Shown here: positions 18,648 through 43,191 of the stretch, one piece after another
How positions within the stretch are numbered: the stretch's first letter is position 1
How the letters are laid out: each line of letters opens with the position of its first letter
Virus record (IMG/VR): IMGVR_UViG_3300043788_000058
Location: 1 to 43,191 of that record
Reading direction: 5' to 3' (one strand)
Source of the DNA: a virus
DNA: 43,191 nt
Notes under the pieces: model-generated
What the model was told of the DNA's origin: nothing
Seen by the model: the letters and a program-made list of their open reading frames with translations, nothing else
Databases searched by the model: none
Translations under genes and position numbers: made by a program

Positions 18648-19027
18648 TAGCTTGGTCCCACCGTGACACCTTGCTTCACGTCAATGGTACCGTACATGAG
18701 CCCGTCGGTTTGACCCGTGGTACTATTGACCATGATCAGGTCATAGACATACTTCCCAACAGGAAGCGCCGTGCGGATCGCGCCGTCGGCGACGTTCATC
18801 TGAAGGATGCGGTTGATCGGGTCATCCACAAGAATGGTATTGGAGAGGCTCGATAGCGCAAGCAGCGGCACCGTGTCGATGTCATGCACCTGCACGTTCA
18901 AATAGAAGTTCATGCCGGTGAAATTCCACGTCTGGTCATCAAGCTGCCCAAACTGAAAGGCATCATCCCACCAGACGTTGTTGTCGATTTCGATATCGAC
19001 GCGCGTAAGCGGACGCTTCCCGATCAT
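18647..19027 (-). CDS. Ig-like / baseplate-fibre-adaptor-type protein, 126 aa
   Basis: The start is placed at the ATG at 19027 with GGAGG seven bases upstream; the longer frame overlaps the preceding gene. The product is all-beta: an opening acidic strand pair ([18 protein letters not shown]), a central [16 protein letters not shown] strand and an ending [14 protein letters not shown], then [12 protein letters not shown]. This order (an ...FxLxVQVxD... strand, then ...LPxGxYxYDL...) matches small phage proteins that link fibres or upper baseplate pieces to the tail. It sits exactly between the fibre genes and the adaptor genes, which fits. Confidence 0.6.
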
Positions 19028-19028
19028 G

Positions 19029-19811
19029 TTAGAACCTCCGGTCACTGCCCATCCACAGACCGCCGCGCTGGCTAGACGTGCGGAACTGCTGCGGGAAGGC
19101 CCATGCGCTGGCGCCAAACGTATTCTGTTTCAGGGCACGAACGCGGGCGATATTGACACCTTGTCGAAACAAGCCGTAATTGATCTTGCCGAGGTTGAGG
19201 TCCGAATAGGGACGATCAGCCTGTAGCTGCATCTTACCCTTGATGCCGGCAAGTAGCCACGTTTCATATGTGCGCACCACCCAATACGGCACGTGAGGAA
19301 GATCAGTACCCTCAGGGATACGCACGTTCTTGATCACCGTCGCATACACCGAGATCGCGTTGCTGGGCGCATGGTACAGGGTGAGGATCGGCGGAATAGG
19401 CATGTGGCCACGCCACGGCTGACGCGTGGTCGGTTCGATTACACTCGCGAGCCCAATAATCTCGCCCTTGGGAAAGGGCTCAAACAAGCTCTGCGGGTTA
19501 CCGGGCTCCAGCCAGTATTCCTGTACGGACGCTTGCAGGATACCGGGGATCGCCTCAAGCCAACAAGAACTGTCGTTGAAGAACTCGTGAAATACTTCGT
19601 ACATCACCGTGCGGATCGCCGCGTCGCTGGCGCCAAGCAGTTCAGTGCGCGCGCGATTATAGAGATACTCGACGTGCGCCTTCAAATTCACAGCACCCGT
19701 CGGCCCGGTCGCGCCAGTGGTACCGAAAAACGCCGGCCCTGTTACCGCGCCGGTAACACCCAAGAACGTACCTGTCGTGCCGGTAGGCCCCGGCTGCCAA
19801 AACTCTTGCAT
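19029..19811 (-). CDS. Head-tail adaptor / tail tube-type protein with short collagen-like N-terminus
   Basis: The 260-residue protein begins with a 40-residue collagen-like leader (QPGPTGTTG, then [10 protein letters not shown]). A helical and beta domain follows (HVEYLYNRARTELLGASDAAIR, later WVVRTYETWLLAGIKGKMQ and PYSDLNLGKINYGLFRQGVN). The latter pattern (a Trp-rich helix, then gKPwSnl..a..y..F..Gi..AR) resembles adaptors encoded just after the capsid gene in podovirus-like phages. A collagen-like leader on an adaptor is odd. A perfect palindrome at 19741-19757 falls in the leader, about 18 codons from the start. Confidence 0.65.
   Translation of the reverse strand: MQEFWQPGPTGTTGTFLGVTGAVTGPAFFGTTGATGPTGAVNLKAHVEYLYNRARTELLGASDAAIRTVMYEVFHEFFNDSSCWLEAIPGILQASVQEYWLEPGNPQSLFEPFPKGEIIGLASVIEPTTRQPWRGHMPIPPILTLYHAPSNAISVYATVIKNVRIPEGTDLPHVPYWVVRTYETWLLAGIKGKMQLQADRPYSDLNLGKINYGLFRQGVNIARVRALKQNTFGASAWAFPQQFRTSSQRGGLWMGSDRRF
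19741..19757. promoter_or_regulatory. Dispersed palindrome, perfect copy
   Basis: GTTACCG-CGC-CGGTAAC, 54 bases inside the 19029-19811 gene, encoding V-T-G-A-V-T within a collagen-like leader. Confidence 0.85.
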
Positions 19812-19813
19812 CG

Positions 19814-20233
19814 TTACACCTTAGGCGGCTGCTTGCCGGCCGTCGCGCGCTTCGCAAGGAGCCGGTTCTCCATAGACTGAATGAACCCGGTCGCGCGTTC
19901 GTCCTCGATATCCTCTTGGTCCCGCGACAACGCGTGCCCAACAATTCCGTCGATAATCGCCTGTCGAAAGCCTTGCTCAATAGGCACAAATGCATCCCAT
20001 GTCGGGTTTGTCTTGTCCTCAGTCGGAGTGGCGTCTTCGTCATCCTGCCACTGATACTGCGGCACATTGTCGAGGTCATCCATGAACAAGTCTGGTCGCA
20101 TACGGCGCGCATCAAGGAGCGTGAGGTTGAGCGACCGCACGAGACTGTGAGTACTGTATCGATAGGGTTCGATCCGATCCTGCAAGAGCGTACGCGCATC
20201 GCGCAGGTAGTCGCCCACAACGAGGAAGGCCAT
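19814..20233 (-). CDS. Head-tail connector-type protein, 139 aa
   Basis: The start is taken at the ATG at 20233-20231 (MAFLVVGDYLRDAR) because GGAG lies upstream; an ATG four codons earlier at 20245 is the alternative. The product is helical: LNLTLLDARRMRPDLFMDDL, then a later GFRQAIIDGIVGHALSRDQEDIEDERATGF. The layout (R.RPD.f near the middle and ALsRD.e...n...A..f toward the end) is that of small adaptor proteins encoded next to the capsid gene. It lies between the capsid gene and the next adaptor in the same operon. Confidence 0.6.
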   Translation of the reverse strand: MAFLVVGDYLRDARTLLQDRIEPYRYSTHSLVRSLNLTLLDARRMRPDLFMDDLDNVPQYQWQDDEDATPTEDKTNPTWDAFVPIEQGFRQAIIDGIVGHALSRDQEDIEDERATGFIQSMENRLLAKRATAGKQPPKV

Positions 20234-20251
20234 GTCGCACTCCATACAGAA

Positions 20252-20280
20252 AGGCCGGCAGAGCGTAGCCCTACCGGCCT
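20252..20280 (-). terminator. Intrinsic terminator after major capsid gene
   Basis: Read leftwards, an extended hairpin with up to 13 pairs (AGGCCGG...CCGGCCT, two wobble pairs, loop TAC) is followed by TTTCT. It lies 25 bases after the capsid stop and just before the connector gene. It may lower expression of downstream genes relative to the capsid gene. Confidence 0.75.
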
Positions 20281-20304
20281 AACTAATCGTTACCGTGTCA
20301 GCTA

Positions 20305-21321
20305 TTAGCTGCCGGGGGTGACCTGCGCCTGTACGAGGGCACGACCGTCCACGACCTGATAGCCGTAAACTTGGAGCCCGCGGAGGATTTGGCCGAAGGT
20401 CAGTTCGGACCGGAGCGTCTCGACCTTGCTGATCTGGCTCGCGAACGTCAGACCGTGGGCATGACCAGCGTAGATCGGCCACTCACCGGGCTGGAAGTGC
20501 ACGTTGTCCGAACTGTTGTTCGGAAGCAGGTTCGAGATATAGATGGTGAACCGATCCACCATCCCGAGGCGGCCGTTGCGGAGCATCGACACGCTATCGC
20601 CCGACAGGTACGCCTGACGGAGTTCGGACTGCTTGATCATGCGACCAGCCCACGCCGGCATGACGACCCAACGGCCGACCTCCGGGATGTTCTGCTCGTC
20701 AAGCGTCTGACCCATGCGCATGAGAAGGTCGAGAAGCTCGACTTCACCCGACGCCGGGTCACGCGCGACAACCGACAGAGGCGAGCCGGTGACGCCGAGG
20801 TTGATGGTGCCAGTGATGGCGCCCGCCGCGATACCCTGATTGGCGGCGACCATCTGGCCGCTGATGCCGTCGAGAACGTCGCTATCGACCGCGATCTTCA
20901 ACTGCTGGGCGGCGTCATCCGACCACATGGACAGAATGTTCAGATCGGACTGAATTTCCATCACGTCGTCAAGGATCAGCGAGAACAGCTTGCCGTTGCC
21001 GATGTACAGTTCGACGGTTCCGCCGGACGGACGATCGAGCGGAAGCAATTCGTCCGCCGAATAGTTGTGGATGGTGATGGTCGGCTTCGTGCGAATTTTC
21101 ACACGATCGCCCTTGTTCTTGATTTCGCCCTCGTAATCGGTGTTCGAGATTGCGGCCAACACAGTGCTCGCGTAGAACTTCTCCACAAGCTTGCCAGACC
21201 AGATTTCCGGGATAAACCCGGTGGCCTGCAACGTGTTGGCTACGCCACCGTTGGGGTAGATATCGCCCGCTGCCGATCCGGAAACGGAGGCAATGGGAAA
21301 TGCACCAGACGGGATAGACAT
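20305..21321 (-). CDS. Major capsid protein, 338 aa
   Basis: The region FIPEIWSGKLVEKFYASTVL, the following DYEGEIKNKGDRVKIRT, and the later VMPAWAGRMIKQSELRQ are typical of HK97-fold coat proteins of the podovirus-type group with an upstream scaffold gene (P22- or N4-gp56-like; I cannot separate these by eye). AGGGG precedes the start. Scaffold upstream, terminator and connector genes downstream, and portal further upstream give the standard head-gene order. No N-terminal delta domain or protease is seen, consistent with use of a separate scaffold. Confidence 0.88.
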   Translation of the reverse strand: MSIPSGAFPIASVSGSAAGDIYPNGGVANTLQATGFIPEIWSGKLVEKFYASTVLAAISNTDYEGEIKNKGDRVKIRTKPTITIHNYSADELLPLDRPSGGTVELYIGNGKLFSLILDDVMEIQSDLNILSMWSDDAAQQLKIAVDSDVLDGISGQMVAANQGIAAGAITGTINLGVTGSPLSVVARDPASGEVELLDLLMRMGQTLDEQNIPEVGRWVVMPAWAGRMIKQSELRQAYLSGDSVSMLRNGRLGMVDRFTIYISNLLPNNSSDNVHFQPGEWPIYAGHAHGLTFASQISKVETLRSELTFGQILRGLQVYGYQVVDGRALVQAQVTPGS

Positions 21322-30745: not shown

Positions 30746-33112
30746 TTATCCGTTTCCGCCCTGAATGGGCACGGCGCCGGGACCTTTCGGTTTACCGGTC
30801 AACGCAGTCGTCGGCCCCATATGGTTAGTCGCAAGCTGGGTCGGCCGAGACCCCTGCGCGCGCGAAGCTGCTTGGTTCATATTCGTGGCCGGGCGCTCGG
30901 CGGCGGCGGGGTCACCGGGGCCACCTTTCCCTTGCGGCGCGCCGCCGGGCTGGGCTTCACCGCCGGGCGGACCACCCGCGCCGGGTTGCCCCGGCGGGGT
31001 GCCAATGTGCGTCGGCGGTCCCATCGGAAGACGCTCATCCGTCCCAAGAATGCCTGACGTAATTTCGGTGGTGATGCGTTGGACACCCGCCTTCACGCCG
31101 GCGTCCACGCCCTTGTTCACCGCCTCAACCGCGCCCGCATTCGCCGCGTTCTGCGCCTCCTGCTGCTGCATCTGATCAAGCTTGTCGTCATCGGGGACAA
31201 TTTCGTCGCCCACAAGACCAATCGTGTTCGACACCGAGCGAAGCACCTTACCACGACCGGCGATCCCCATGATTTTCTGGTCAAGCGGGTTAGCCGTGGT
31301 CTGGAGGAACTCGATCTGGCGCTGCCGCTGCGTCTCGCGCTGGATCGCGACGTTGACGCCGAGGACGCTGACGCGTTCTTCGCCCGTCAGAAGGCCACTC
31401 GTATCCGTGAGCAAGACTAGATCGAACAGTTGCAGAAGTGCCTGTTCCATCACGTCCCGATCGATGTTCGCCGAAACTGTCTGCAAGATTTTTGAAGCGT
31501 TACCCATAAGCATCGCCAGCCCGCTGGCTGTGCGCCCAGCACCGGAACCCGCTTGGCCGCCAACATATTTCGGGATAGCCGACACGTCATCTGCGACCTC
31601 AGTAAAGTACTCCAACACCTTGATCAACTTCTCAGAATTATCCATCGGCTGAAAGAAGCCGATCGGCTCTTTCTGGGCGCCCGAGCCCGCTGCCATCGGG
31701 TTGCGCTTGGCATGCCACCGCTTCCAAGGATACATATCCTCGGAATTGTCACTGGGGTCCACTTGTTCATCATCCACAACCACCTGCGGTCCCGACGCGA
31801 TCGAGAGGTTATTGATCAGTGACCGCAACGTGGCGTTTGCGCCTTCCTGAATATCGGTCAAGAGGTCGGTAAGGCCATTGCCTACCGGCGTCCCGGGAAC
31901 CTTTTCATAACTCGTGATGAAATACGGATGCCTCATACGGGGGCTCGGCGAAAGCTGCGCCTTGATGACATGCGCGCCAACGCACCACACCTGAACATGA
32001 TAGTCCACAAGATCATCCGGAACCGCGAGCCCGTAATCCTGCAAGACACGACCCTGCACGTTGCCATTGAACTCCATCATGCTCATCATTCCGGACCGGT
32101 TCCACGCCGGGTTCTCGCGACTTTCGAGGACAGCGCGCTCAGCGTCCGTCGTGTCCCAGTTGTCATAGAGGCCGCCGCGGCCATATTCGTCCAAAACAGC
32201 CTTAATTTCGTCCTGATTGTAGCCCGGAAGGGTAAGTAGCTCATTCAATTCTGCACGGGTGATCTGCTTTTTTTCGATAACACTGGCGTTCTCGATCGAC
32301 GCCACGCCGGGTGTCCACCACAGGTCAAACGGCGAAACACGCTCCCATGTGAGCGTCGGCTTCATTTCGATGGTCGGCTGTCCCCCTCCACTCCATGAGA
32401 GGGTCGGAATGACGCGAACCACGGGCCCCTTAATGCAACCAAAAGGGAAAATTGGAAGATCAACAAGGAACTCGGCCAAGGCATGATAAAACCCTCCCTC
32501 GCGCAGGATTTCATCGATCTTGTCTTCAGCGTCCTTGGCTTGGTCGGCGGCCTTCTTCTTGGCCGCATCGGACGCACTTTCAAGCAGCATTCGCTTGCGC
32601 TTGTCCAAGTCAGACTGCCCGGGCGGCTTCCCCAGTGTTTGCTGGATCATTTGCTGTTCAGACTTAATAAGCTGATCGATGCTTTGAAGAATTTCGGGCG
32701 GAATGTCGCAATCGGACGGCGGCTTAATGGCCCACGCCCGTTCGGAATTGAGGTAAATATCCCTAAGAAGCGAGCTTGCGGCGCGGCATTTCTGCGCGAT
32801 CAAGCGCATGTATACCTGCGAGCCGCCCCAACGGCGAATTTCTTGGAGCTTGCTTTCCTCGTACTGCCCATTAAAAGCCCGAAGGGCAACAAGCAGTCGG
32901 TTCGACCAGCCGGCCTGCGTATTCCGATGATTGCGCATAATCTCGAACTGGCCCTTGATATACGAGACCAGCGTGCTAACGTCCCCCTGCGCAATAACTT
33001 GCTGCGCGCTCTGCGTGGCCTGCGCCTGCGAGGTCGCGTTCTGTTGATCTTGCGCGTCAAGGGCGGCCGGGGGCACAACCTGAATGACGCCATTTTGGCC
33101 GAGCGAGTTCAT
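30746..33112 (-). CDS. Portal protein, 788 aa
   Basis: The large size, a helical N-terminus and the C-terminal half YVGGQAGSGAGRTASGLAML (about residues 530-550), followed by ILQTVSANIDRDVMEQALLQ and RQRQIEFLQTTANP, match the portal proteins of P22-like and related podoviruses, including the characteristic long C-terminal extension that is Gly/Pro-rich here. It forms the dodecameric DNA entry ring and docks the terminase. AAGGGATG precedes the start. It diverges from the packaging operon only 38 bases away. Confidence 0.85.
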   Translation of the reverse strand: MNSLGQNGVIQVVPPAALDAQDQQNATSQAQATQSAQQVIAQGDVSTLVSYIKGQFEIMRNHRNTQAGWSNRLLVALRAFNGQYEESKLQEIRRWGGSQVYMRLIAQKCRAASSLLRDIYLNSERAWAIKPPSDCDIPPEILQSIDQLIKSEQQMIQQTLGKPPGQSDLDKRKRMLLESASDAAKKKAADQAKDAEDKIDEILREGGFYHALAEFLVDLPIFPFGCIKGPVVRVIPTLSWSGGGQPTIEMKPTLTWERVSPFDLWWTPGVASIENASVIEKKQITRAELNELLTLPGYNQDEIKAVLDEYGRGGLYDNWDTTDAERAVLESRENPAWNRSGMMSMMEFNGNVQGRVLQDYGLAVPDDLVDYHVQVWCVGAHVIKAQLSPSPRMRHPYFITSYEKVPGTPVGNGLTDLLTDIQEGANATLRSLINNLSIASGPQVVVDDEQVDPSDNSEDMYPWKRWHAKRNPMAAGSGAQKEPIGFFQPMDNSEKLIKVLEYFTEVADDVSAIPKYVGGQAGSGAGRTASGLAMLMGNASKILQTVSANIDRDVMEQALLQLFDLVLLTDTSGLLTGEERVSVLGVNVAIQRETQRQRQIEFLQTTANPLDQKIMGIAGRGKVLRSVSNTIGLVGDEIVPDDDKLDQMQQQEAQNAANAGAVEAVNKGVDAGVKAGVQRITTEITSGILGTDERLPMGPPTHIGTPPGQPGAGGPPGGEAQPGGAPQGKGGPGDPAAAERPATNMNQAASRAQGSRPTQLATNHMGPTTALTGKPKGPGAVPIQGGNG

Positions 33113-33150: not shown

Positions 33151-33699
33151 ATGACACAGATCGTCCCCACTGTTACCGTGCCGGTAACAATCCCTGAACT
33201 GGGCGCGCCGCTCACCCCGGCACTAGCCGCGGGTTTAGCGCGAGAGATCGCAATCGGGCTGCGCGAGCTTCCGGAAATCCTAGAGGCCTACAAAATATCG
33301 GCCGAGACTTACGAAAAACTTAAAGCGCATGAGTTCTTCCAGAAGCTAGTTGACTTGTCCCGGATCGAATGGCATGCTGCGGCCAATACTCAAAACCGTC
33401 TCGCTTTGGAGGCGGCCGCCACGGCGGAAGCTATCATGCCCGCGGTTTACGCCCGAGCGATCGACCCGAAAGAACCCCTCAATCACGTAGTCGATTATCT
33501 GAAATGGCTGGCGGACGTGGGCGGCTTGAAGCATGACGCTAACAAAGGTACTCCCGGTGAACGGTTCCAAATCACCATCAACCTTGGCGCTGATACGAAG
33601 ATCGAGTTCGACGGATCAAAAGCGCCAATCGGCGGCGACCCCAATAATCTCCCGGTCCTTCCGCTGCCTAGCTTTGATGACAAAGAGGACCGCGTATGA
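33151..33699 (+). CDS. Terminase small subunit-like protein, 182 aa
   Basis: First gene of the plus-strand packaging operon. The N-terminal part is helical (AREIAIGLRELPEILEAYKI, then SAETYEKLKAHEFFQKL), compatible with the helix-turn-helix of small terminases. The middle (NTQNRLALEAAATAEAIMPA) and the end are beta-like. Identity rests mainly on position, two genes ahead of the phosphoesterase and large terminase, and on the LPEIL-xx-Y-x-IS-xx-x-YE pattern. The ribosome binding site is weak (GAGG 14 bases away). A perfect palindrome begins 21 bases into the gene. Confidence 0.5.
   Translation: MTQIVPTVTVPVTIPELGAPLTPALAAGLAREIAIGLRELPEILEAYKISAETYEKLKAHEFFQKLVDLSRIEWHAAANTQNRLALEAAATAEAIMPAVYARAIDPKEPLNHVVDYLKWLADVGGLKHDANKGTPGERFQITINLGADTKIEFDGSKAPIGGDPNNLPVLPLPSFDDKEDRV
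33172..33188. promoter_or_regulatory. Dispersed palindrome at divergent junction, perfect copy
   Basis: GTTACCG-TGC-CGGTAAC, seven codons into the terminase-small-like gene (V-T-V-P-V-T) and 60 bases upstream of the divergently transcribed portal start. It is well placed to affect both transcription directions. Confidence 0.85.
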
Positions 33700-33968
33700 A
33701 CAAAGACTGGCGGTACAACCATTCCCCGAAAGGGCGCGCGCGGATGCAACGATACCGCCAGTCCCCGAAAGCGAAAGAAGTAAATAGGGTATTCGATCAA
33801 ACCCCTAAAGGGGCACTACGCAAACTCAAATATAACATATCCCCGCTCGGTCGCGAGCGTAATTGGAGATACGACCATGAAAACCGACGCCGACCGTCTC
33901 GCCGACGCGCAGGAGATCATTCGCAAAAAGAACCTAGAAGTGAACAATCTACGCGGTGCGGTGGCTAA
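33696..33968 (+). CDS. Basic SPKGR-repeat protein, 90 aa
   Basis: Starts with an ATGA overlap onto the previous stop. It contains imperfect repeats of a short unit: YNHSPKGRARMQRYRQSPKA, FDQTPKGALRKLKYNISPLG and a last RYDHEN. Strongly basic, with regularly spaced S/T-P-K/L-G. Such repeats occur in small DNA-tracking-like phage proteins, but I know no assigned function. The last 30 residues overlap the phosphoesterase gene by 92 bases and are arginine-rich, so the true end may be earlier or the overlap may be real. Confidence 0.5.
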   Translation: MNKDWRYNHSPKGRARMQRYRQSPKAKEVNRVFDQTPKGALRKLKYNISPLGRERNWRYDHENRRRPSRRRAGDHSQKEPRSEQSTRCGG

Positions 33969-34971
33969 ACTTCAGCGGGAACATGACAACGCAGAAGAAA
34001 TTCGAAAGGTCATCTTCAATATCGCCGAACATGATCCCGAGCCGGTGAAGTGGCTTCCGACACGCGGGTCCGCGCTCACACACCGCGGCGGTCCGTGCGT
34101 CATCTGGTCGGATTGGCATTATGGCGAAGTCATTGACCCGGATCAGGTCGGCGGCGTCAATACGTTCAACGCCGATATCGCGACTGCGCGCGCCAAGCGC
34201 CTCGTGGATACCACGATCGATCTCTGCTTCAATCACATGGGCCGCGCTGACAAGACCTATCCGGGCATCGTCGTGATGCTCGGCGGCGACATGATCGGCG
34301 GGAATATTCACGAGGAACTTGCCGAGACCAACGATCGCACTCCGATGCAAGCAGTCAACGACCTCACTGATCTATTGGCCGGTTGCATCGATAATCTGGC
34401 TGCCAAATTTGGGCGTGTACGGGTCCCGTGTGTTGTAGGTAATCACGGTCGAACAACGCTTAAACCGCGACTGAAAAGCGCTGTCTATCACTCTTACGAC
34501 TGGGGTATCTACTGCAACCTCAAGCGCCATTTTCGCAGCACACAAGCGGTGCAGTTCCTGATCCCCAACGAAACCGACGCACGCTTCGACGTGTACGGAC
34601 ACCGCTACCTTCTCACCCATGGTGACAACCTCGGCGTGAAGGGCGGCGACGGCATCATTGGCGCGATCGGCCCGATCATGCGCGGCAGCATGAAGGTCCG
34701 CACAAGTGAAGCCGAGATCGGCCGCGACTTCGATACTGCCTGCATCTGCCACTGGCATCAATACATTACTCTCCCCGGGCTGATCGTCAACAATAGCCTC
34801 AAGGGATATGACGAGTTCGCCCGGCTGCGGCTGCGCGCGAAGTATAGCGTCCCCTCGCAGGCGCTGTGGTTCACGCACCCGGAACACGGCATTACCGCCC
34901 ATTGGCAGGTGTATCTGGAAGGCCGCCAGCGCGCCGAGCAGAGCAAGACGTGGGTAGCTTGGCAGGAATAA
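33877..34971 (+). CDS. Metallophosphoesterase (calcineurin-like), 364 aa
   Basis: Motifs in order: SDWHYGE with D79-x-H81, LGGDMIGG with GGD at 136-138, VVGNHGR with GNH at 188-190, a GH-like YLLTHGDN, and a terminal CHWHQY. This is the five-block pattern of calcineurin-like phosphoesterases and Mre11/SbcD-type nucleases. A coiled coil occupies residues 5-45. GGAG lies eight bases upstream. It is encoded between the terminase genes, so a role in processing DNA ends during packaging is likely, though a simple phosphatase or host-defence role is possible. Confidence 0.75.
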   Translation: MKTDADRLADAQEIIRKKNLEVNNLRGAVAKLQREHDNAEEIRKVIFNIAEHDPEPVKWLPTRGSALTHRGGPCVIWSDWHYGEVIDPDQVGGVNTFNADIATARAKRLVDTTIDLCFNHMGRADKTYPGIVVMLGGDMIGGNIHEELAETNDRTPMQAVNDLTDLLAGCIDNLAAKFGRVRVPCVVGNHGRTTLKPRLKSAVYHSYDWGIYCNLKRHFRSTQAVQFLIPNETDARFDVYGHRYLLTHGDNLGVKGGDGIIGAIGPIMRGSMKVRTSEAEIGRDFDTACICHWHQYITLPGLIVNNSLKGYDEFARLRLRAKYSVPSQALWFTHPEHGITAHWQVYLEGRQRAEQSKTWVAWQE

Positions 34972-34972
34972 C

Positions 34973-36427
34973 ATGTCCTTTGTATATAATGCTTCACGCA
35001 CCGTCGCGGCCATGTCGAAGTGTGAAGCCTTCGGCCGGCTGATCGCTGGACCCGTCGGCTCCGGAAAGACCACCGGCGTCATCGTTGAAATGCTGCGACG
35101 GGCGATCGAACAACACCCCGGGCAAGACGGCAACCGGTACACTCGGTTCGCGGTCGTCCGGCAAACCCTTAAGCAGTTGAAGGACACCGTCCTTAAAGAC
35201 TGCGACACGTGGCTCGCCGCGAACGGGATTGGCTACTGGAAAATTTCTGATAGCACATACCATATTAACTTCGACCGCGTGCGGAGCGAGTGGATATTCC
35301 TCCCGCTTGAAGACGCCGCGGATCAAGGGCGTCTCCTGTCGATGCAGCTTACCGGCTCATGGTTGTCGGAGTGCATCGAAATGGATATCTCTATCCTCGG
35401 CCCGTTGTCCGGCCGTATCGGGCGATATCCGTCCGGCGTGAAGGGCGCGCCGACATGGAACGGCATCATCGCCGACACGAACTTCCCAGCCGAAATGACG
35501 CCGTGGTGGGAGTTCATGGAACGAGCGCCGGAAGACTGGAAAATTTTCAAGCAGCCAAGCGGGCTCGCGTGGGACGCCGAGAACCTTGACTACCTGTTGC
35601 AGACCGACGATACCATGAAGCTGCCATTAGGTCATCCCGACCGCATCGCGCGCGGGCGCGAATACTACAACCGTATCGTCCGGCTCCACGGGATCGAGAG
35701 CGATTTCGTCAAACGCTACGTCAAAGCCGAGTATGGCGATGACCCGAGCGGCCGCGCTGTCTTCCGCGAAACCTTCCGCCGCAAATGGCATGTGGTCGAT
35801 GACACGAACGTGATGCCCGGGTATCCGATCATCGTGGGGCAGGATTTTGGACGTGACCCATGGAGCTTAATTTGCCAACCCGATCATCTTGGGCGTATCC
35901 TCGTACACGAGGAAATCCCCGCCACTAACATCGGTCTGGAGAAGCACTGCCAAGATCACCTACGAGCGCGACTGCTTCAGTCAAAGTATATGGGATGCCG
36001 CGTTGCGCTGGTCGGCGATCCCGCCGGCGTAGCAAAGAGCACGCATTCGGAAGAAACCAGCTTCGACCTCCTGAAACGGCTCGGCTTCCCGTGCTTCCCG
36101 GCGCCGACCAATGACCTCGATCCGCGCCTGCGCGCCGTGGAGAGTTTCCTTGGACGACATACCAACGGCGGCCCCAGCATGCTGATCAACCGTGCGGGCT
36201 GCCCGCACCTGATCCGCGCACTCGACGGCGGCTACCGGTTCGAGTTCGCCAAGGCGTCCGGCATTCGACGCGACATTCCTCGTAAGGATGAATACTCGCA
36301 CGTGACAGACTGCCTTCAGTACGTCTGCCTCGTCTGCCACGGGGGCACGCTGCAAGCGATTGCCGCGCGCATGATGCCACGACCGCGCGTGCACGGCCCG
36401 AGAATTTCCCCGGCCGGTTGGACTTAA
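34973..36427 (+). CDS. terL: Terminase large subunit, 484 aa
   Basis: The N-terminal ATPase domain shows AGPVGSGKTT (Walker A, residues 25-34), with a probable acidic Walker B/catalytic region at SWLSECIEMD (129-138). The C-terminal nuclease domain has VGQDFGRDP (D291), VALVGDPAG (D349) and HVTDCLQYV (D446), the expected three acidic metal-binding residues. It powers and cuts DNA during packaging through the portal. It starts one base after the phosphoesterase stop. Its last codons overlap the convergent gene at 36424 by four bases, with no visible terminator between the two. Confidence 0.92.
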   Translation: MSFVYNASRTVAAMSKCEAFGRLIAGPVGSGKTTGVIVEMLRRAIEQHPGQDGNRYTRFAVVRQTLKQLKDTVLKDCDTWLAANGIGYWKISDSTYHINFDRVRSEWIFLPLEDAADQGRLLSMQLTGSWLSECIEMDISILGPLSGRIGRYPSGVKGAPTWNGIIADTNFPAEMTPWWEFMERAPEDWKIFKQPSGLAWDAENLDYLLQTDDTMKLPLGHPDRIARGREYYNRIVRLHGIESDFVKRYVKAEYGDDPSGRAVFRETFRRKWHVVDDTNVMPGYPIIVGQDFGRDPWSLICQPDHLGRILVHEEIPATNIGLEKHCQDHLRARLLQSKYMGCRVALVGDPAGVAKSTHSEETSFDLLKRLGFPCFPAPTNDLDPRLRAVESFLGRHTNGGPSMLINRAGCPHLIRALDGGYRFEFAKASGIRRDIPRKDEYSHVTDCLQYVCLVCHGGTLQAIAARMMPRPRVHGPRISPAGWT

Positions 36428-37046: not shown

Positions 37047-37385
37047 TTAGTGGCGCAACGCTGGCGCGTTGGCGACTTCCTCGATCAACTCCATCTGTCG
37101 CCCTAGCTTCTCCGTTTCGAGGTCAGTCTCACGGCACAGATAGGAAATCGTCTTGTTGATAGCTTCTTCATCAAACTGCTGCTGGGCCAGCATCCCGCTC
37201 GTCATGTCAAGCACCTGCGCCCGCGTCACCAACCCATAGACAGTCAGCGCAGTCTGTAGGAACTGCGCATACGCCTCAGGCGTCATGTTAACATTATGCG
37301 CGTAGAGCAGCGCAAGGAACACGTTCTGCTTGACCTGAGAACCCTCTGCGCGAAGGTCATTCCGATCGAACCGCTTCGCGGACAT
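37047..37385 (-). CDS. Hypothetical helical protein, 112 aa
   Basis: The start is set at the ATG at 37385 (MSAKRFDRND), seven bases after GGAGG, coupled by TAATG to the preceding winged-helix gene. The product is predicted all-helical (NVFLALLYAHNVNMTPEAYA, later DEEAINKTISYLC and TEKLGRQMELIEEV). Its coupling to the winged-helix gene suggests the two work together. Family unknown. Confidence 0.65.
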   Translation of the reverse strand: MSAKRFDRNDLRAEGSQVKQNVFLALLYAHNVNMTPEAYAQFLQTALTVYGLVTRAQVLDMTSGMLAQQQFDEEAINKTISYLCRETDLETEKLGRQMELIEEVANAPALRH

Positions 37386-37930
37386 TAGTCGGCCTCCTTC
37401 AGAAGCTCCCATATCTTACGACGGTCAACTTCCGTCATCTGATACCCTAGAGAGTGGACCGTCTGTAGAGTTATCCCGAGCGGCACAAGCTTCTTGCGCA
37501 TCTTGCAGACCACCACGTCCACAAGTTTTATCTGGCTGGGCTCCGACTGGTTGCCATGGTCAGCAGCAAGCAGCAACTGCTCACGCGAGGCGTGGCCGCG
37601 ACGCAGGATAACCAGCAAAAGTCGTCCTTCTTGGGGGGTTGTCTTCACCTTGCGCGACAAGAGCATGACAAGATCGTCGTCATCGAGCGTCGCAAGGGTC
37701 TGGGGCACGCAAGGGAGGCGCGTGAGCCGCGTTCCGCCGGTCGGCCAGTCTTCGGAGGGCATCGAAACGAGCCTACCAGCGGCGATTGCGTCGTGCAAAA
37801 AGGGCCGTAAATTCTCGTCTGAGACCCTGAAAATCCGCTTTAATGCCCCTATTGGGACACCTTCGTCGGCTGCGCGCTCAACCATCGCACGGTTGCCAAT
37901 CCAACTGTCTAGACCCGGGTCTTCGATCAT
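37385..37930 (-). CDS. OmpR/PhoB-type winged-helix DNA-binding protein, 181 aa
   Basis: The C-terminal 85 residues have the winged-helix pattern of response-regulator output domains: RLLLVILRRGHASREQLLLA, a basic recognition-helix region VDVVVCKMRKKLVP, then LQTVHSLGYQMTEVD, the typical hairpin wing ending GY. No receiver domain with phospho-acceptor Asp is visible; the N-terminal half is a separate helical domain (GVPIGALKRIFRVSDENLRP). It has no clear Shine-Dalgarno, and an 11-bp hairpin lies 18 bases upstream. It is the one candidate transcription factor I see in the window. Confidence 0.65.
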   Translation of the reverse strand: MIEDPGLDSWIGNRAMVERAADEGVPIGALKRIFRVSDENLRPFLHDAIAAGRLVSMPSEDWPTGGTRLTRLPCVPQTLATLDDDDLVMLLSRKVKTTPQEGRLLLVILRRGHASREQLLLAADHGNQSEPSQIKLVDVVVCKMRKKLVPLGITLQTVHSLGYQMTEVDRRKIWELLKEAD

Positions 37931-41886: not shown

Positions 41887-42099
41887 TTAACGGTCGCTTA
41901 CTCGGCTCGGATCGTGCGGAGACCACAGGCCGATCACGCCCACATGGATCACAGAGACAAACGCGCGCATCCAGAACGCCCATGTCCCCTGTGTTTGCAG
42001 GGTCACAACCTGCGGTAGGTGTGAGTTCCGTGGCGTGAGAGCGGTAAAAGTGACGATTTTAACCTTGTTACCGTGCTCGGATTTGGAATTCTTACACAT
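41887..42099 (-). CDS. Small membrane protein, 70 aa
   Basis: The start is at 42099 with AGGAGA six bases upstream; the longer frame upstream has no ribosome binding site. The N-terminal half is polar (MCKNSKSEHGNKVKIVTFTA); a hydrophobic segment (TWAFWMRAFVSVIHVGVIGL) is followed by a polar end. It is the first leftward gene next to the inverted-repeat control region, so it may be expressed early. Function unknown. Confidence 0.6.
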   Translation of the reverse strand: MCKNSKSEHGNKVKIVTFTALTPRNSHLPQVVTLQTQGTWAFWMRAFVSVIHVGVIGLWSPHDPSRVSDR

Positions 42100-42146: not shown

Positions 42147-42627
42147 TTGACAAATTCGTTTTCGCGCCGTTGGCGGGCTGCGAAAAGTTAACGACTTGCA
42201 TATTTCGCGGCGTAAGTTAATTCGTCAGATACGTTTTCGGAGTTGACAAATTAAGTTTTGCAAATTCAAGTATCTGCAACCATTGACGAATTTTCTTAAT
42301 CTGTCAATTTGTCAAAGATTTTTGGGTAGGATACCCTAAAAGGGACTTCGACATTGATATTATTCGGTGACCTAACAAAAGGTAAAGCTAATTTGTAAGA
42401 AAAAGTTGACAAATTAGCTTTACCTTTTAGTAAGGCACTCAACTATCCAATCAATTAAAAAAAACCGTAGTCTTGTTTTTTCGTTACTTTTTCTTAACTT
42501 TGCGAATTAATATCAATGTCGAAGTCCCTTTATAGGTATCCTACCTAAAAATCGCTTACAAATTGACAGATTAAGAAAATTCCTCAATTGGTTCAAAGAC
42601 TTGAATTTGCAAAACTTAATTTGTCAA
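42147..42627. repeat. Five copies of the 10-mer TTGACAAATT
   Basis: Exact copies are at 42147-42156, 42243-42252 and 42406-42415 on the plus strand and at 42306-42315 and 42618-42627 on the minus strand. Looser forms (TTGACGAATT, TTGACAGATT) are also present. This density suggests binding sites for a replication or regulatory protein. Although TTGACA is a -35 hexamer, no matching -10 lies at the right spacing for the first three. Confidence 0.7.
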
Positions 42628-42657
42628 CTCCAAAAACACGTTTTGCGAATTAACTTA
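42213..42657. repeat. 150-bp inverted repeat pair flanking a 145-bp loop
   Basis: The left arm (42213-42362) and right arm (42508-42657) are the same length and align as inverted repeats with about 130 of 150 matches. Mismatches cluster in short blocks (for example 42225-42232), leaving conserved blocks such as GAGTTGACAAATTAAGTTTT and GGACTTCGACATTGATATTA. The region is much more AT-rich than the rest of the window and has no gene. It sits between leftward and rightward transcription units, so an origin of replication or a master control region is the best guess. Confidence 0.9.
42377..42428. repeat. Inner 20-bp perfect inverted repeat
   Basis: The 20 bases at 42377-42396 are the exact reverse complement of 42409-42428, with a 12-base loop, in the centre of the large inverted repeat. 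The right half begins within a TTGACAAATT copy. Confidence 0.9.
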
Positions 42658-42691
42658 ATCCAGGAAATATGTGAACCTTCGCACTTTTTGC

Positions 42692-42720
42692 TTGACATGA
42701 CTGCGAGACTATCTCATAAT
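42692..42720 (+). promoter_or_regulatory. Consensus sigma70 promoter
   Basis: TTGACA (42692-42697), a 17-base spacer, then CATAAT (42715-42720): a perfect -35 and a one-mismatch -10. Transcription would begin near 42727, with GGAGG at 42744 and the ATG at 42754. It is the strongest promoter I see in the window. Confidence 0.9.
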
Positions 42721-42753: not shown

Positions 42754-43191
42754 ATGTCCCGCTCTAGCAACGTTTCATATCACGATGGTGTGTGGCGTGT
42801 GCCTGTGTATCCCCTGATCCAACGGATCAACCGCAAGCTTGCAACCTTCGTACCACACCGGGAGTTGTATCACCGATATGGGACAAAGGACTACTATCTC
42901 AGGTCCTATGCTCTAGGGGGAGCCCCTCTGAAGGATATAGGGCCGGTCTATTACCAGCATTTGATTGGTCTTGCTGACTACATTTCGCTGTGGACGGGTA
43001 AAGAAAAAATGCACAATCCCAAAGTTGTCATCGATAAAGATTTAACGACCTATGCCAACGAGCCTTGGCCTGCGCACATGGCATTCGACATGCTTTCCAG
43101 TCGTCTTGCCGACGCGGCGAATTTGCTCGTGCACGAAGGTTGGAAGGTGACACCGCCTGTTACCGCAACGGTAACGAACGGCGCCTTGCTA
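42754..43191 (+). CDS. Hypothetical early-type protein, 3' end beyond window
   Basis: The ATG lies five bases after GGAGG and is driven by the consensus promoter. 146 codons are open to the edge (MSRSSNVSYHDGVWRVPVYP, later RELYHRYGTKDYYLRSYALG). No recognised domain; the protein appears soluble and aromatic-rich. Being the first gene right of the inverted-repeat region, on the opposite strand to the late genes, it is probably an early gene. A perfect palindrome lies at 43159-43175 (V-T-A-T-V-T). Confidence 0.75.
   Translation, partial: MSRSSNVSYHDGVWRVPVYPLIQRINRKLATFVPHRELYHRYGTKDYYLRSYALGGAPLKDIGPVYYQHLIGLADYISLWTGKEKMHNPKVVIDKDLTTYANEPWPAHMAFDMLSSRLADAANLLVHEGWKVTPPVTATVTNGALL
43159..43175. 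promoter_or_regulatory. Dispersed palindrome, perfect copy
   Basis: GTTACCG-CAA-CGGTAAC in the plus-strand early-type gene, showing that sites occur in both transcriptional arms. Confidence 0.85.

Follow-up and report, generated by a model that had tools for sequence, protein, structure and literature searches.

An AT-rich inverted-repeat element near the end of a viral contig is probably an iteron-type replication origin that would be fired by a self-loading primase-helicase. This reading is derived from the anatomy of the element together with the co-segregation of iteron type with residues 401-1058 of a primase-helicase encoded by related phages. A replication origin had been proposed in the first-pass annotation of this DNA, next to a large operator array and the source of a hairpin RNA; the comparative evidence supports the origin proposal well, and GC skew is only suggestive.

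The inverted repeat and its iterons

The window, i.e. the whole stretch of 43,191 bases that was analyzed, comprises the entire record IMGVR_UViG_3300043788_000058 and is without end repeats. According to its gene content in Pfam and PHROG searches, the contig is a fragment of a short-tailed-phage-like genome (Table 1), and its best isolate relatives are the Rhizobium phages RHph_TM27A and kin (57% for the portal). The element divides leftward from rightward genes, and the strand switch already placed there by the first-pass annotation was confirmed. The first rightward gene is cut by the contig end after 437 bp, and the replication module, with any primase-helicase of this phage, falls outside the contig. 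This truncated gene gave no match in Pfam and PHROG searches and a direct search for its relatives returned none; by eye, the first gene of relative G001 resembles it. An outward promoter similar to the one between element and gene was also seen by eye in G001 and G002. On the other side, the family of the first leftward gene adjoins the element in six of the first 16 genomes compared. A candidate regulator, a small conserved protein that has a winged-helix domain of the OmpR type (37385-37930), is encoded 4-5 kb from the element; its Trans_reg_C match (1.4e-5) is below the Pfam cut-off.

Table 1. Positions of genes and sequence features in the window.
Feature	Position	Strand	Basis or remark
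SU10-type portal	30746-33112	-	domain matches
Exonuclease/phosphoesterase-like	33877-34971	+	domain matches
Terminase	34973-36427	+	domain matches
First leftward small gene, 66 aa	41616..41816	-	family F41
[AC][AC]GGT-N3-[AC][AC]GGT, ACGGTAACAAGGT	42062..42074	-	family-wide 8-bp-spaced motif
Iteron TTGACAAATT, exact	42147..42156	+	just beyond left arm
Left arm of long inverted repeat, 164 nt	42199..42362	+	
Iteron TTGACAAATT, exact	42243..42252	+	left arm
Iteron TTGACGAATT, 1 mismatch	42283..42292	+	left arm
Iteron pair, 8 bp apart	42298..42315	-	left arm; 42298-42307 (1 mismatch), 42306-42315 (exact)
AT-rich centre, 145 bp, 30% GC	42363..42507		composition; proposed unwinding region
Inner hairpin, perfect 20-bp repeat AAAAGGTAAAGCTAATTTGT	42377-42396 / 42409-42428		
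Iteron TTGACAAATT, exact	42406..42415	+	within inner hairpin
Right arm of long inverted repeat, 164 nt	42508..42671	-	
Iteron pair, 8 bp apart	42555..42572	+	right arm; 42555 (2 mismatches), 42563 (1 mismatch); mirrors 42298-42315
Iteron TTGACAAATT, exact	42618..42627	-	right arm; mirrors 42243
Sigma-70-like promoter TTGACA-17-CATAAT	42692..42720	+	11/12 consensus positions; points away from element
First rightward gene	42754..43191	+	cut by contig end

The element had been described as a 445-bp inverted repeat with 150-bp arms of about 87% identity. The repeat is real, but its arms are longer and, with 140 of 164 positions complementary (85%), slightly less alike; they lie 145 nt apart. Comparison of the 1-kb region with its own reverse complement gave a local score of 225, whereas dinucleotide shuffles of the same region reached a mean of 17.5 and a maximum of 26. 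The perfect 20-bp inverted repeat reported for the loop was found as well; it encloses 12 nt and sits inside a 30-nt repeat of 87% identity (42367-42396 / 42409-42438). Likewise, the AT-rich composition noted earlier is evident, as 42199-42671 has a GC content of 32.1% compared with 60.0% in the remaining contig and contains the contig's lowest-GC 400-bp window. An AT-rich region (30-32% GC versus 60%) is flanked by repeats on both sides. A DNA similarity search of the element against phage records yielded no match.

The 24 mismatches between the arms fall into 16 runs, with 20.6 expected (p = 0.007), which is a mild grouping. The first-pass annotation had taken grouped mismatches as a sign of selection on specific blocks. 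The grouping is weakly borne out. Iterons hold six mismatches in 58 positions versus 18 in 106 outside, and since this depletion is not significant (p = 0.36), grouping alone is no proof of selection.

The iterons had gone unremarked in the first-pass annotation. The 10-bp word TTGACAAATT occurs in direct and inverted orientation in five exact copies, all of which are located in the element, with none in the other 42 kb. Together with degenerate copies (Table 1), these words flank the AT-rich centre on both sides.

The locus in related phages

Scans with terminase, polymerase, and capsid led to 28 further large contigs and the isolate RHph_TM27A as relatives; a profile search of viral contigs with the primase-helicase returned mostly distant proteins. 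Genomes of this family are about 61-70 kb in size and short-tailed-phage-like, and a gene-by-gene comparison of the first 16 revealed a conserved gene order and circular-type genomes. In nearly all relatives that cover the locus, an AT-rich noncoding element lies where the structural and replication modules diverge, with leftward genes on its left side and rightward genes on its right side, and in most of them it is the lowest-GC 400-bp window. In RHph_TM27A, the AT-rich gap is found at about 19.4-20.1 kb of the record. The element statistics exclude G007 and G026, whose contigs probably do not reach the locus, and G008, in which it was not located.

Presence in relatives had been suggested as a check on the element. 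Its position and AT-richness are kept, but its sequence is not: elements of different phages are unrelated, and even G001 and G002, most proteins of which are 73-98% identical, share only 43% identity in the element. Self-complementarity exceeded every shuffle in 12 of 17 tested elements, with scores of 133 in G001, 93 in G003, 76 in G006, and 74 in G002 against shuffled maxima of 17-27; the other elements are only partly self-complementary.

Most elements hold genome-specific iterons that are nearly absent from the remaining genome. AAATGTCC has all of its copies in the element in G010 (9/9), G015 (8/8), and G016 (7/7), and the same holds for CCACCATTTT in G006 (8/8), CGTAACTAC in G024 (7/7), and TAATTCGCA in G025 (5/5), while ACCGCGTCC in G003 has 11 of 12 copies there. 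These words are 8-12 bp long, occur directly and inverted about the centre, and are often spaced by 8-12 bp. Concentration of repeats at one site is therefore found in the window (5/5 copies of its own word) and in most, not all, relatives; an exact-word search gave no clear iteron in G001, G002, G004, G008, and TM27A. Throughout the family, the elements also share another motif. [AC][AC]GGT at a spacing of exactly 8 bp is present in 49 pairs in the family elements versus 4.6 expected, a 10.6-fold enrichment; the window has one such pair. An unsupervised scan for repeat clusters was swamped by coding repeats and was not used as a test.

GC skew, another check that had been suggested, gave a mixed result. 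The detrended skew has an extreme about 0.2-2.7 kb from the element in 11 relatives, as a minimum in nine and with reversed polarity, as a maximum, in G010 and G013; in G009, G015, G016, and G019 the extreme lies away from the element, and for G008 the skew was compared with a wrong position. Skew is used as supporting evidence only; the divergent genes partly confound it at the element. In genomes with a terminase gene inverted with respect to the structural genes, the third-position skews of terminase and portal show a negative correlation (rho -0.57, p = 0.007; p = 0.03 in 18 less redundant genomes), which fits a strand bias and not a transcription bias. The terminase-exonuclease cassette itself (33151-36427 in the window) has this inverted orientation in the window and 20 relatives and not in nine others; this inversion is repeated within one family.

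Iteron type and the primase-helicase

The replication module of the relatives encodes a family-A DNA polymerase, an SNF2-type helicase, an AAA ATPase with a metallopeptidase-VWA partner, and a primase-DUF927 helicase. The latter is a protein of about 1020 amino acids in which an archaeo-eukaryotic-type primase is fused to a DUF927 helicase, and its gene is located 12-27 kb from the element. The protein profile matches the SCCmec Cch helicase (PDB 5dgk, 6e-17) and a pathogenicity island protein (8tch, 1.7e-13), so a helicase of the Cch/SaPI Rep family is encoded on the same replicon as the element in the relatives. The predicted structure of the C-terminal domain (pLDDT 90, pTM 0.84) has its significant structural matches among DUF927 phage proteins; Cch (5dgk) ranks first among its PDB matches, which is not significant (E 0.29), and a structure search with the whole C-terminal third gave no significant PDB match.

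Phages with the same iterons tend to resemble each other in the C-terminal part of this protein. G010 and G009, which differ in their iterons, share 52% identity at the N-terminus, followed by 40, 35, and 18%, whereas G010 and G021, which have the same iterons, share 39% and then 45, 52, and 34%; for the same-iteron pairs G010-G021 and G010-G020 together, the ranges are 39-40% at the N-terminus and 34-52% at the C-terminus. In a permutation test in which overall divergence was regressed out, iteron labels were permuted, and the pair G006/G028 was dropped, iteron type co-segregated with residues 401-700 (p = 0.0010), 701-860 (p = 0.0002), and 861-1058 (p = 0.0007), but not with residues 1-400 (p = 0.62). 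Eight controls, namely polymerase, SNF2 helicase, F8, terminase, portal, winged-helix protein, RecB, and capsid, did not co-segregate either (p = 0.06-0.93). The test is based on one large iteron group of five genomes and several small ones. The statistical co-segregation is strong, and the C-terminal half of the primase-helicase may set origin specificity. An apparent co-segregation of the DNA polymerase was spurious; it resulted from a short or broken polymerase reading frame in G006/G028 and vanished once this pair was dropped.

In the same pair, the match between the genomes of G006 (19001-21250, L101/L102) and G028 breaks off sharply halfway through the gene for the primase-helicase. At the protein level, the N-terminal part is about 94% identical and the C-terminal half about 51-58%, and by sequence this looks like the replacement of half a gene. 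As a clean case of an origin swap the pair was rejected, and it is taken as a hint only, since many other segments differ too. The family-A DNA polymerase appears as two adjacent shorter frames in G006 (L102:9390-11748) and G017 (L123:7211-9042), perhaps owing to an intron, an intein, or a frameshift. The AAA ATPase and its DUF2201 metallopeptidase-VWA partner (F24, F25) are found in 11 of the first 16 genomes at +5.5 to +9 kb from the element. In RHph_TM27A, the primase-DUF927 helicase (MN988461 42248-45331, L084:14249-17332, EVB29_077) is annotated as 'putative integrase protein'; judged by sequence, the EVB29_077 family is clearly a primase-helicase.

Proposed mechanism, alternatives, and known systems

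In the proposed mechanism, the primase-helicase of each phage would use its C-terminal half to bind the phage-specific iterons of 8-12 bp that stand in both orientations on either side of the AT-rich centre. Binding would load helicase rings on both arms, the AT-rich centre would melt, and forks would leave both ways toward the divergent structural and replication modules, so that the near-palindrome may be regarded as two mirror-image half-origins. The initiator of the window's own phage, encoded outside the contig, would be of the same primase-helicase kind. The length of the arms, which exceeds that needed by iterons alone, counts against the origin reading.

The iterons could instead be bound by a phage repressor or activator, which would make the element a master operator controlling the divergent transcription units while replication starts elsewhere. 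The divergent genes, the strong outward promoter abutting the right arm, the Trans_reg_C protein encoded nearby, and the TTGACA within the iteron, which resembles a -35 box, agree with such a role. However, iteron type co-segregates with the C-terminal half of the primase-helicase and not with the Trans_reg_C protein (p = 0.18). The one good promoter match is located beyond the arms, and at about 450 bp, with as many as a dozen sites and an AT-rich core, the element is large for an operator. A pure operator, the main rival of the origin, is therefore unlikely; origin and operator may coexist, with the latter as a second role of the same sites. The arms could also fold into a very long hairpin, and weak miRNA-like Rfam matches might point to a gene for a long structured RNA or a transcribed hairpin that serves as a defence target or regulator. 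The best Rfam match of 42.4 bits is far from the gathering score of 211 and typical of any long hairpin, the element has neither a promoter leading into it nor a terminator behind it, and relatives keep position, iterons, and AT-richness but not the sequence. The hairpin-RNA source proposed by the first-pass annotation is thus highly improbable.

In linear plasmid prophages, inverted repeats between divergent modules serve as telomere sites, and by this likeness a protelomerase, terminase, or integrase might cut the element as a site of telomere resolution, packaging, or attachment. This is very unlikely, as the protelomerase domain PF16684 is present in none of 21 relatives and an integrase domain in just one of them, and the 145 bp between the arms and the 12-nt loop of the inner repeat leave no uninterrupted palindrome. 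Long inverted repeats that are AT-rich in a GC-rich genome are likewise reminiscent of a MITE-like mobile element inserted by chance, which is extremely improbable here: the contig holds a single copy, and other family members carry an element of unrelated sequence at the same position. This positional conservation refutes such an insertion as the sole explanation. The sole tyrosine-integrase domain among the 21 relatives (G016:C1:2474-2971) is located about 2 kb from the element.

The origin reading finds its closest parallel in staphylococcal systems. SaPI Rep and Cch2 are self-loading initiator helicases that recognize short iterons via their C-terminal domain, as reported for the iteron origin of SaPI; Cch carries DUF927 and is related to SaPIbov1 Rep (PMC7581432). 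The phage elements share the iterons with the SaPI origin and the putative SCCmec origin, and the phage DUF927 helicase is homologous by sequence to Cch and a SaPI protein. In SaPI and SCC, the origin lies next to the helicase gene (PMC7581432), whereas the phage gene is distant from the element. In addition, primase and helicase are fused in the phage family, the arms are long and inverted, the elements share a further motif spaced by 8 bp, and the element belongs to whole phages of 61-70 kb and not to satellites. As judged from sequence, the element would work like a SaPI/Cch origin, but it is not classified as one because the helicase gene does not adjoin it.

Palindromic origins such as oriL and oriS of herpes simplex virus and those of the SV40 type carry binding sites in two mirrored arms with an AT-rich centre in between. 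The phage element resembles them in its mirrored arms and in an AT-rich centre between divergent genes; the initiators are unrelated, so that this is an analogy only. The alpha protein of phage P4 acts at ori and crr iterons, and P4 needs two separate sites. A fused primase-helicase at iterons would be the common feature, but the type of primase-helicase is different and no second origin site as in P4 was found here. P4 alpha has been described as a fused initiator helicase-primase (PMC7145576). Iteron plasmids combine iterons with an AT-rich DNA unwinding element, as in oriV of RK2 (PMC4980987), but their Rep protein recruits a helicase, whereas the phage initiator would be the helicase itself.

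It is conceivable, though doubtful, that these phages use a modular origin code in which exchange of the iteron set and of the C-terminal half of the primase-helicase is uncoupled from the remaining protein and genome, while a second factor reads the [AC][AC]GGT array at every origin. If so, co-infecting relatives would have private origins that are mutually not recognized. No origin for these phages was described in the papers searched. With about 25 natural variants of the origin and an initiator matched to each, the family would allow direct tests of the code by which self-loading helicases of the DUF927 type recognize DNA. Furthermore, origins in uncultured phages might be located without sequence conservation by seeking a private word that is almost confined to an AT-rich divergent gap. 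In the phage-sized Bradyrhizobium record NZ_PSRT01000042 (L372, 60.6 kb), an AT-rich gap is present without clear iterons; the record encodes a capsid (66%) and a primase-helicase of this phage family and provides a lead to the host.
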